36,201 nucleotides of DNA, taken from positions 1 through 36,201 of the forward strand of contig JAHFEQ010000012.1 in assembly GCA_023248395.1 (NCBI GenBank), given 5' to 3'. Position numbers and translations under genes: made by a program. A model generated the notes under the pieces. The model made no database searches. It had not been told where the DNA came from and saw only the letters and a list, made by a program, of their open reading frames with translations. How positions within the stretch are numbered: the first letter of the stretch is position 1; every line of letters begins with the position of its first letter. This DNA is from Nitrospirota bacterium. GTDB lineage: Bacteria; Nitrospirota; 9FT-COMBO-42-15; HDB-SIOI813. This document shows, piece after piece, positions 10,250-25,740 of the stretch.

Positions 10250-10273
10250 GACAGAGCGAAACTGATCAGCGAT

Positions 10274-10307
10274 CAGCTATTAGCAGTCTACCGACGGCTA
10301 ATAGCTG
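10274..10307. repeat. inverted repeat in the atpH-atpA gap
   Basis: CAGCTATTAGC (10274-10284) and GCTAATAGCTG (10297-10307) form a perfect 11-bp stem with a 12-base loop. Related AGCTATTAG/GCTAATAG words extend to about 10324. No T-run follows, so it is not an intrinsic terminator. Confidence 0.75.
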
Positions 10308-10374
10308 ACAGCTAATAGTCATCAGTAGTTGAATATTGGAAAAGACCTTTCACGTTTTTGAAGGAGAAAGTACT

Positions 10375-11896: not shown

Positions 11897-11919
11897 GTAG
11901 CCGCAGGCTTTAGCCTGCG
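11897..11919. repeat. REP-like hairpin, copy 2 (atpA-atpG gap)
   Basis: GTAGCC followed by GCAGGCTTTAGCCTGC, the same hairpin as at 2282-2338, in the 49-base gap between atpA and atpG. The atpG start lacks a clear Shine-Dalgarno site, so the hairpin may affect its translation. Confidence 0.8.
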
Positions 11920-11941
11920 TCCTAAATAAAAAGAATATATA

Positions 11942-12790: not shown

Positions 12791-12793
<3 letters not shown>
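11942..12793 (+). CDS. atpG: ATP synthase F1 subunit gamma
   Basis: 283 residues. The N-terminal helix MLTLRQIRRKIIAAQKTKQI and the segment ITRTMQMVAASRVKKAE, and the C-terminal helix LTLMRNKARQAAITKEITEI, are the paired coiled-coil ends that form the rotor shaft; SDRGLCGSYN is the central signature. ATG 11942 is preceded by AAAAAGAATATATA with no real Shine-Dalgarno site, unusual in this operon. It is followed by a 137-base gap with a long AT-rich palindrome before atpD. Confidence 0.95.
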
Positions 12794-14337
<1,544 letters not shown>

Positions 14338-14404: not shown

Positions 14405-14445
14405 TTTTAAGTTAGAGGTAAGAAGTAAGATAGAGGCAGGAATGA

Positions 14446-14475: not shown

Positions 14476-14733
14476 ATGGCCAAAAATTTCAGATTACTAA
14501 TCATTACTCCTGAGAAGACGTTCTATGATGCGGAGGTAAGCTCTATTATAGCCCCTGGGGACGTCGGATACCTCGGGGTTCTTGCAGATCATGCCCCTTT
14601 GATTACCAGCCTCAAATCCGGCAATCTCGAAATTACCGGCCAGAATGGCGTAAAGAGTACGATGACCATCAGCAGCGGTTTTATGGAAGTCCTGAAGAAC
14701 ACGGTTACAGTCCTGGCAGATTCCATTTCATGA
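14476..14733 (+). CDS. atpC: ATP synthase F1 subunit epsilon, lacking the C-terminal helical domain
   Basis: 85 residues against about 130-140 in most bacteria. The N-terminal beta-sandwich is complete (FRLLIITPEKTFYDAEVSSI, then PGDVGYLGVLADHAPLITSL and SSGFMEVLKNTVTVLADS), so binding to gamma and the c-ring should be retained. The usual C-terminal helix-turn-helix, which inhibits ATP hydrolysis, is absent. The stop TGA (14731-14733) is followed at once by an inverted-repeat element, so truncation by insertion is possible; naturally short epsilon subunits are also known in some phyla. No Shine-Dalgarno site of note is seen before the ATG. Confidence 0.9.
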   Translation: MAKNFRLLIITPEKTFYDAEVSSIIAPGDVGYLGVLADHAPLITSLKSGNLEITGQNGVKSTMTISSGFMEVLKNTVTVLADSIS

Positions 14734-14886
14734 TATAGTAAAGGCAATAAATATGTATACATAATAAGCATGCAGCAGTTTGTCATTCCCACGAAAGTGG
14801 GAATCCATTCTCATCGCCAAATTCTGGATTCCTGCTTTCGCAGGAATGACTCAAAGGATGTAACTTTATTTATTGCTGTTACTATA
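14734..14886. repeat. nested palindromic element directly after atpC
   Basis: Outer imperfect 20-bp arms (14734-14753 and 14867-14886, TATAGTAA...GCAATAAATA) enclose a second inverted repeat, GTCATTCC...GGAATGAC, at 14782-14850, a type of repeat common in many bacterial genomes. The left edge coincides with the base after the atpC stop codon. Confidence 0.75.
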
Positions 14887-14887
14887 A

Positions 14888-14985
14888 AGTCAAAATGCAA
14901 AATGACAAATCAAAATTTAAAAATGAAAAAAATAAATTTTGCGTCTTGATATGTATTTTTAATTTTATATTTTTGATCTTTGATC
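14888..14985. repeat. AT-rich palindromic repeat, copy 2, overlapping a start region
   Basis: Shares 32 identical bases (14890-14921) with 12810-12841, followed by TTTTTAATTTT and TTTTTGATCTTTGATC words like the other copy's right arm. The first 30 or so codons of the gene at 14895 lie within it. Confidence 0.75.
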
Positions 14986-15662
14986 TCTCTTCATATGCCG
15001 TATGTCCGCCACCCATCAAAATAGTGTCCTCTCAACCCACGGACAAAGCAAAGGCTGCAGACCCTACAGCGTCTATTGTGATAACATGGGATAAGACTTC
15101 ATTTCAACTTCCTGCAGGTATTCATAACTATAAACCGATGCTTGAATCTATAAATATAGCCGGTGGCCGGTATGGCCTTGGAACACTCCTGACCACAGAA
15201 TGGGGGGTCGGCGGACAGGTAGCCTGGGAGGGAGACAAAGAGACGATAACCCCGGAGTCACCGCTTGAGCCCGGGACTCAATACCGGATATGGACTTATA
15301 TCTATACCTCAGGCGGCGAGGCGTGTCCTGTATATGGGGGAGAGATCGTCTTTATCACAGCAGGCAACCCGCCTGAAGACAATAAACCTATCAGGAAATT
15401 TGATCTTACCACCCTTTATTATGGAAATGAGACGGGCTCCGGCAAGATAGAAGGTGAGATCGCAGAGATGAACAATGATCTCCATGTGATTACTGTAAAA
15501 GAGGGGGTCCTTAAAAAGGTCAATATCATCCTCTATGAAGGTGTTATGGTCATGCGAAATGGGAATATGGCCTTGCCATCGGCCTTAAAGGTTGGAGACA
15601 AGGTGACCGGGGAATTCATGGGCGGCAGACTGTTTATGCTCACCGTCACAGGAGCACCATAA
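14895..15662 (+). CDS. secreted protein of unknown function, Ig-like plus DUF5666-like domains
   Basis: 255 residues. After a hydrophobic segment (about 16-31, CVLICIFNFIFLIFDL, then SSYA cleavage) comes an Ig-like domain (about 38-155) with SSQPTDKAKAADPTASIVIT and LEPGTQYRIWTYIY, similar to bacterial Big_5/SbsA-type domains. The C-terminal region (about 180-255; GSGKIEGEIAEMNNDLHVIT, then VKEGVLKKVNI and VGDKVTGEF) resembles the protein at 260-658. The start and signal peptide are encoded by a copy of the AT-rich repeat. There is no Shine-Dalgarno site, so expression is uncertain. It lies between the atp genes and hisS. No function is assigned. Confidence 0.7.
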   Translation: MQNDKSKFKNEKNKFCVLICIFNFIFLIFDLSSYAVCPPPIKIVSSQPTDKAKAADPTASIVITWDKTSFQLPAGIHNYKPMLESINIAGGRYGLGTLLTTEWGVGGQVAWEGDKETITPESPLEPGTQYRIWTYIYTSGGEACPVYGGEIVFITAGNPPEDNKPIRKFDLTTLYYGNETGSGKIEGEIAEMNNDLHVITVKEGVLKKVNIILYEGVMVMRNGNMALPSALKVGDKVTGEFMGGRLFMLTVTGAP

Positions 15663-15716: not shown

Positions 15717-16964
15717 ATGAAACAGATCCAGGGCGTCAAAGGGGTTAAAGACATATTGCCTGATGAGGCCATGGCATGGCAGCATATCCAGCAAAAGGCC
15801 CGCAACATCTTTCATACCTTTGGTTACTCAGAGATCATCATCCCCGTAATCGAGGCAGCAGAACTCTTCTTAAGAAGCATCGGCGAGACAACGGACATCG
15901 TAGAAAAGGAGATGTATACTTTTGAAGACAGGGACAGGAAAAAGATCGCCCTGAGGCCTGAGGGGACTGCATCCGTAGTCCGGTCCTATATAGAACATAG
16001 CTTAAACCAGGCATCTCCATTCTCAAAACTATACTATATAGGACCCATGTTCCGGCGGGAGAGACCCCAGGCCGGACGCTATCGTCAGTTCTATCAGATA
16101 GGCGCAGAGGTCTTTGGATTTGAACACCCGATGATCGATGCCGAGATGCTATCGATGCTCAACCTGCTTTTCCAATCTCTGGATATCAGTGGGCTTGAGC
16201 TTCAGATTAACAGCATCGGTTGTCCGAACTGCAGACCACAATTTAGAGAGGCCTTAAGGGATTTCTTTGCTGGAAGATTAAGCGAGCTGTGCGAAAACTG
16301 CCAGAGGAGGTTTGAGTTAAACCCGCTGAGGATACTCGACTGCAAATCTTCACATTGCCATGCCCTTTCCGGAGAGGCACCAAAGACCCTTGATTATCTG
16401 TGTGCCGATTGCCTCACACACTTCAACAAGGTCCAGGATTCCTTGAAATCGGCTGGAGTCCCCTATGTGATCAATCAGAGGCTTGTCCGGGGACTTGATT
16501 ACTATACGCACACCGCCTTTGAATTTGTGAGCGGTTCTTTAGGCGCCCAGAATACCGTTGCCGCCGGTGGAAGATATAACACCCTTGTGGAAGAACTTGG
16601 AGGGCCGTCTACCCCTGCTATAGGCTTCTCTATTGGGATGGAGAGGCTCGTTTCTTTATTTGACAGTAGTCCTGTAGAAAAGCAATCGCCTTTTCTCTTT
16701 ATCGTTGCCTTGGGAGAGAAGGCGCAGGAGCAGGGTTTTTCACTGATAAACAAGTTACACAAAGAAGGCATCTCCGCCATCATGGACTACAGCAATGGGA
16801 GCCTTAAGAGCCAGATGCGAAAGGCGGATAAATTCAACGCAGCCCATGTCCTCATCCTCGGAGAGGATGAGCTGGCAAAAGGAGTGGTGACACTCCGGGA
16901 CATGAAAAACAAGACCCAAGTGGAAGTACCGCTCCTGGAAATTGTTGGAAAATTTGGATCTTGA
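15717..16964 (+). CDS. hisS: histidyl-tRNA synthetase
   Basis: 415 residues, class II aminoacyl-tRNA synthetase that charges tRNA-His. Motif 2 is MFRRERPQAGRYRQ (111-124). The histidine-specific motif is RGLDYYTHTAFEF (258-270). Motif 3 is GFSIGMERL (303-311). A Cys-rich insertion (CPNC 169-172, CENC 192-195, C209, C214, C229, C232) of the type common in bacterial HisRS is present. The C-terminal anticodon-binding domain follows (about 325-415). The Shine-Dalgarno site lies in an inverted repeat. Its stop is two bases from the stop of the convergent ihfB-like gene. Confidence 0.97.
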   Translation: MKQIQGVKGVKDILPDEAMAWQHIQQKARNIFHTFGYSEIIIPVIEAAELFLRSIGETTDIVEKEMYTFEDRDRKKIALRPEGTASVVRSYIEHSLNQASPFSKLYYIGPMFRRERPQAGRYRQFYQIGAEVFGFEHPMIDAEMLSMLNLLFQSLDISGLELQINSIGCPNCRPQFREALRDFFAGRLSELCENCQRRFELNPLRILDCKSSHCHALSGEAPKTLDYLCADCLTHFNKVQDSLKSAGVPYVINQRLVRGLDYYTHTAFEFVSGSLGAQNTVAAGGRYNTLVEELGGPSTPAIGFSIGMERLVSLFDSSPVEKQSPFLFIVALGEKAQEQGFSLINKLHKEGISAIMDYSNGSLKSQMRKADKFNAAHVLILGEDELAKGVVTLRDMKNKTQVEVPLLEIVGKFGS

Positions 16965-25702: not shown

Positions 25703-25717
25703 GACACCCTCTTCTCA

Positions 25718-25740
25718 CGCAGGCTAAAGCCTGCGACTAC
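25718..25740. repeat. REP-like hairpin, copy 4 (pheA-hisC gap)
   Basis: GCAGGCTAAAGCCTGC followed by GACTAC, the reverse orientation of the hairpin at 2282-2338. It lies in the gap between pheA and hisC, upstream of the hisC Shine-Dalgarno site. Confidence 0.8.

Follow-up and report, generated by a model that had tools for sequence, protein, structure and literature searches.

The window, by which we mean the whole 36,201-nucleotide stretch analysed, comes from a Nitrospirota-type bacterium and carries an AT-rich palindromic repeat both between atpG and atpD and at the 5' end of an open reading frame (ORF) that lies ahead of hisS. The features on which the analysis turns are as follows.

12794 to 12909, forward strand: full-length, non-coding copy of the repeat, located after the TAA of atpG and before the GGAGG of atpD (profile match; absent there in relatives).
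14886 to 14985, forward strand: second copy of the repeat, with the outermost left-arm bases missing (leave-one-out nhmmer, shuffles, alignment).
14895 to 15662, forward strand: ORF of 255 amino acids, with repeat-coded codons 1-30, then LSSYA, then the mature domain.
14895 to 14897, forward strand: ATG from the left arm of the repeat, equivalent to the codon at which the PF05635 gene of full-length units (MQNDKSKFKNE...) begins.
14943 to 14984, forward strand: right arm of the repeat, coding for the hydrophobic core VLICIFNFIFLIFD (shuffles, alignment).
14985 to 14999, forward strand: signal peptide c-region LSSYA (CTCTCTTCATATGCC), apparently retained native sequence (orthologue comparison).
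15717 to 16964, forward strand: hisS, the downstream neighbour, conserved in all seven orthologue loci.

The product of the ORF at 14895 reads MQNDKSKFKNEKNKFCVLICIFNFIFLIFDLSSYA/VCPPPIKI..., the slash marking the inferred cleavage site, and the predicted mature protein begins at about residue 36, after the repeat-coded part has ended. A charge of +3 ahead of the core, Ser at position -3 and Ala at position -1 are signal-like features, the KD hydropathy of the core is 3.10 as compared with 2.26-3.23 in the orthologues described below, and the protein would presumably be exported through Sec. The mature domain displays a weak likeness to the Ig-like family Big_5 (PF13205, E = 8.6e-4, below the family cut-off).

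A nucleotide profile built from the other copies of the repeat, with the window copy left out, was used to assess the claim that codons 1-30 lie within the repeat, and it matched 14886-14985 at E = 3.6e-14; the same-repeat profile matched the atpG-atpD copy, itself a member of the profile, at E = 1.8e-22. Positions 14886-14927 are 95% identical to 12806-12847 over 42 nt, and the 32 left bases said to be shared with the atpG-atpD copy were found by direct reading to be identical at 32/32 positions (14890-14921 and 12810-12841). As these sequences are compositionally biased, 1000 dinucleotide shuffles of each segment were used as controls. The full copy at 14886-14985 scored 48.0 bits, while the best of its 1000 shuffles reached 11.1, and the right half alone scored 9.6 against a best shuffle of 3.7. 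Thus the half that codes for the hydrophobic core is also homologous to the repeat and not merely T-rich, in accordance with the predicted origin of the core in the right arm. The alignment between the copy at 14886-14985 and the atpG-atpD copy extends for 91 nt from the ATG at 14895 onwards and is interrupted only once, by a gap of exactly 3 nt. Translated in the corresponding frame, the atpG-atpD copy reads MQNDKSKFKYEGRYNFCILICHFDF, a stop, and then YLIFNF, its TGA being ATA in the 14895 copy and its His and Asp codons corresponding to Ile and Asn.

When the window protein was searched against the genome contigs no related loci were found, and a separate genome search gave seven orthologues, 62-75% identical, together with seven more distant paralogues of the same family, the latter assessed for the repeat by reading their N-termini only. 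The window protein and the seven orthologues form a single clade with support of 100/100. The orthologue N-termini are signal-like and of similar strength, and in all seven they are unrelated to that of the window protein and to the repeat, as seen in MRLLSAVIQVTLYKRFAAAWVIPALLLMNLSVYA/ACLP (G007), MKKLLYLILIIVSLVCLSLPAYA/VCPP (G008) and MKFKNPLIFFVTSFFLSILISYNPVYA/ECPP (G004). The repeat profile gave no match to the seven orthologue loci at E 0.1. In agreement with a repeat-derived N-terminus in the window, these repeat-free orthologues do not share its N-terminal sequence. The N-termini of G004 and of the window protein resemble each other in KFKN, which was put down to chance, the G004 locus giving no match to the repeat.

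It could be envisaged that the hydrophobic core instead belongs to the native signal peptide and looks like the arm through its T-richness, with the repeat having supplied only the left arm (5' UTR, ATG and n-region). T-rich codons would give any hydrophobic core some resemblance to the arm, and the right half of another candidate, L301, considered below, was not above shuffles when taken alone. However, the right half of the window copy exceeded all 1000 of its dinucleotide shuffles, the alignment with the atpG-atpD copy runs from the ATG to the end with that single 3-nt gap, and the core sequence is common to none of the orthologues, and we consider a native core quite unlikely.

The surroundings of the gene are conserved, hisS following it in 7/7 orthologue loci and atpC preceding it in 4/7. 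This bears on the question of whether a repeat-mediated misjoin could have placed a copy before the gene, as might occur in a draft genome of 119 contigs with a multicopy repeat. With the order atpC-X-hisS found in four relatives and X-hisS common to all seven, the window arrangement is unlikely to be a misassembly. The copies in the genome are diverged, and outside the 32 shared bases the copy at 14895 has a sequence of its own; an assembly artefact is thus very improbable.

No SD-like sequence was read in the window ahead of the ATG at 14895. A stop 15 codons before this ATG closes the frame, and no ATG, GTG or TTG start lies between the two, so that there is no sign of a true upstream start lost through a frameshift, a possibility that had been raised along with the original prediction. 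Initiation would be at the ATG of the repeat, and the PF05635 genes described below have this A-rich leader too, likewise with no SD. Conceivably, the repeat does not serve as a translated signal peptide at all, the gene either decaying or starting at an internal TTG (14946) with the repeat frame being fortuitous. Such a reading would be consistent with the ATG that has no SD, with the in-frame TTG codons inside the window copy, and with the finding that most other repeat-start ORFs surveyed are plain upstream extensions. A TTG start within the repeat would, however, leave no positively charged n-region, the rest of the frame is intact at the level of identity to the orthologues given above, and the SD-less leader is common to the PF05635 genes. 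We therefore regard this reading as unlikely.

The junction with the remainder of the gene could be placed closely. Beyond the end of the repeat at 14984-14985 there follow 15 bases, CTCTCTTCATATGCC, that are similar to CTTTCTGCGTATGCC in G003 and CTTTCTGTGTATGCC in G007; at the protein level the cleavage-site segment LSSYA/VCPPP in the window compares with LSAYA/ACLP and LSVYA/ACLP in relatives. The presence of orthologue-like DNA directly after the repeat indicates that the signal peptide is native-like again from its c-region onwards, and resumption at the cleavage site in turn indicates that the repeat replaced the n- and h-regions while the c-region was kept. Replacement of the original 5' end by the palindrome, as first proposed, is thus supported for the n- and h-regions, in which the orthologues are unrelated, but does not extend to the cleavage site, where LSSYA looks native.

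The repeat is found in about 19 places in the source genome. The atpG-atpD copy has inverted arms at 12792-12842 and 12853-12903, and the repeat matches on both strands. No profile match to the repeat was found at atpG-atpD in the loci of six relatives, and G007 has TAAGGAGG in place of the palindrome between TAA and GGAGG; this absence from the relatives' site is an indication of mobility. Present-day mobility of the palindrome, or of the larger unit described below, may be presumed.

Other short repeats are also present in the window. Adjoining the recruited copy, 14731-14886 contains an 18/20 inverted repeat, TATAGTAA..GCAATAAATA, around a GTCATTCC...GGAATGAC palindrome; further occurrences in the genome are confined to the inner ~70 nt. 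A 24-nt palindrome, GTAGTCGCAGGCTTTAGCCTGCGT, occurs in three near-identical copies (2282-2305, 11897-11920 and 25717-25740), and a short hairpin repeat at 10265-10316 consists of the inverted repeat ATCAGCGATCAGCTATTAGCAGTC / GACGGCTAATAGCTGACAGCTAAT. At 14408-14436, AAGTTAGAGGTAAGAAGTAAGATAGAGGC resembles, by eye only, the arms around a PF05635 gene in G003 (L219).

A scan with the left-arm core gave, among the matches listed, records titled Nitrospirae, Nitrospinota, Planctomycetota, Omnitrophota, Patescibacteria, Chloroflexi, Deltaproteobacteria and others. At about fifteen loci among these matches a gene coding for about 123 amino acids, MQNDKSKFKNEFKKRLYNFTLKLI..., has the left arm as its 5' end, and 6/6 of those tested match PF05635, the 23S rRNA-intervening sequence protein. 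In these genes the left arm is at the start codon and the right arm follows directly after the stop codon, so that the gene sits between arms of the same palindrome (L105, L114, L128, L132, L136, L155, L168, L181, L187 and others). As the loci had been chosen by their left arm, matches to the right arm constitute independent evidence, and for 10/15 of the 3' flanks (left-arm loci among the matches listed) the right half of the repeat profile gave a match at E <= 0.005; the 5' and 3' flanks of the fifteen are complementary beyond shuffles in most. The arm-PF05635-arm loci, which are from genomes of many phyla, are unlike 23S rRNA genes in appearance. Within the phylum, further PF05635 genes (L199-L222) have inverted-repeat flanks of differing sequence, 11/20 at p < 0.01, and this variety suggests several families of PF05635 units. 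The PF05635 profile gave no match in the source genome. We know of no transposase activity for PF05635.

Given this arm-gene-arm anatomy, the intergenic palindrome looks like an internally deleted form of a PF05635-carrying unit, the direction of derivation being our reading of the sequences; alternatively, a PF05635 gene may have entered a pre-existing palindrome. On the former reading the recruited ATG is the counterpart of the codon at which the PF05635 gene starts. The earlier suggestion that the palindrome happens to encode a usable signal sequence may be refined in that the ATG is not accidental, corresponding as it does to the start codon of a gene.

Coding use of the repeat was surveyed in 235 distinct copies among the matches listed, from the source genome, relatives and public genomes. 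Overlaps with ORFs were mostly trivial and clear cases few, most of the overlapping ORFs being upstream extensions of a native start; L103, L100, L126, L246 and others, in which a native start lies just after the repeat, were left uncounted as such extensions, and L171 was set aside, a second hydrophobic stretch following the repeat. Some copies do supply hydrophobic N-termini elsewhere, and in about 3/235 the hydrophobic core so supplied belongs to a plausible exported protein, so that recruitment is rare. At L300 in G005 the repeat codes for the n- and h-regions, ...NRILKKSGKFLILHFIFAFLFLIFNF, ahead of SSAHA/WKVP, with AGGAG eight bases upstream of a TTG at the left edge of the repeat. Its G009 orthologue, L301, matches the repeat at 23.8 bits (shuffle maximum 8.8) over the whole copy, and the repeat-coded N-terminus is perhaps common to the two; the G002 and G006 orthologues of L300 gave no repeat match. 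At L130, in an Omnitrophota genome, MKNILNFGLSFCILIFGFWIYCHA/AEV has the right arm as its core, and at L133, in a Patescibacteria genome, fmt starts at the ATG of the repeat, with TTA at what we take to be the position of the usual ATG. The genus of the source genome was represented by this one genome. In 132/274 element strands a hydrophobic stretch stays open as far as the 3' end, as against 57 +/- 5.5 in shuffles, while the full signal-like pattern (start, positive n-region and open core) was found in 21 as against 12.5 +/- 3.3, a weak enrichment. Remnants of the repeat also appear to lie in frame inside ORFs, much as Rickettsia palindromic elements do, at L189 3881-3938 (leucyl-tRNA synthetase-like) and L194 2218-2258 (MnmA-like), the ORF names being assigned by eye.

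Taken together, a mobile palindrome has probably replaced the n- and h-regions of an exported-type protein, giving a chimaeric Sec signal peptide with a native c-region. Homology to the repeat, the junction, the contrast with the orthologues, the conserved gene order, recurrence and the arm-gene-arm anatomy are established at the sequence level. Insertion of the palindrome would have taken place where the h- and c-regions meet within the signal-peptide codons in a gene of the atpC-X-hisS cluster or, alternatively, just upstream of the gene, with a subsequent deletion to the h/c border. The A-rich left arm would then provide the ATG and a Lys-rich n-region, and the T-rich right arm the hydrophobic core once the in-frame TGA of the atpG-atpD copy was absent (ATA). 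The native cleavage site LSSYA would have been retained, yielding a signal peptide with n- and h-regions from the repeat, and the native start and h-region would then have been lost. Throughout, the palindrome would be acting as an internally deleted form of the PF05635 unit. On the broader proposal our judgement is evenly balanced: PF05635 genes may be the cargo of tiny, cross-phylum mobile units bounded by inverted repeats, the internally deleted forms of which are dispersed between genes as palindromes that repeatedly furnish host genes with start codons and signal cores, since an AT-rich palindrome reads Lys-rich and then Phe/Ile/Leu-rich.

The locus offers a clear case in which a functional N-terminus would have been taken over by a mobile repeat, the states before and after being visible through the orthologues, and it suggests what makes AT-rich palindromes good raw material for signal sequences. 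It also ties a widespread, apparently unnamed palindrome to the enigmatic PF05635, making IVS-type movement testable outside rRNA genes. In a search of mainly open-access journal papers we found none that connects PF05635 genes with intergenic palindromes.

Among known systems, the present element resembles bacterial MITEs, ERIC and REPINs as a short, non-autonomous inverted repeat scattered between genes, and as in MITEs it has terminal inverted repeats and dispersed copies with insertion polymorphism. In contrast to these, a transposase-bearing parent was not found here; the only partner gene seen was PF05635, and the PF05635 units have both ends of the palindrome with no transposase seen in them. 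The Coxiella IVS, a small unit regarded as selfish, has an S23p ORF between terminal inverted repeats (PMC4990558). Unlike a 23S rRNA IVS, however, the units and short forms described here adjoin protein genes in many phyla, as do the window copies and most copies inspected, and their arms are AT-rich. The best-known in-frame repeats are the Rickettsia palindromic elements, which are palindromic, ~150 bp long and join coding sequence (reviewed in PMC10969869); whereas those often insert within genes and code for a conserved peptide, the present element lies mostly between genes and contributes to coding sequence only now and then, in few of the 235 copies. The same kind of event has been described for RU-2 in Yersinia YPO1552, homologues of which have unrelated signal peptides (Delihas 2007, PMC2759123), and here too the repeat codes for the N-terminus of an exported-type protein whose orthologues have unrelated signal sequences. 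In contrast to RU-2, the present case involves another element in another phylum, with its junction at the h/c border, a recruited ATG that traces to a gene carried by the presumed parent unit, and additional examples involving this element. Thus while a repeat-derived signal peptide is already known from RU-2, what is new here is that the arms of the palindrome are the ends of a PF05635 gene unit.
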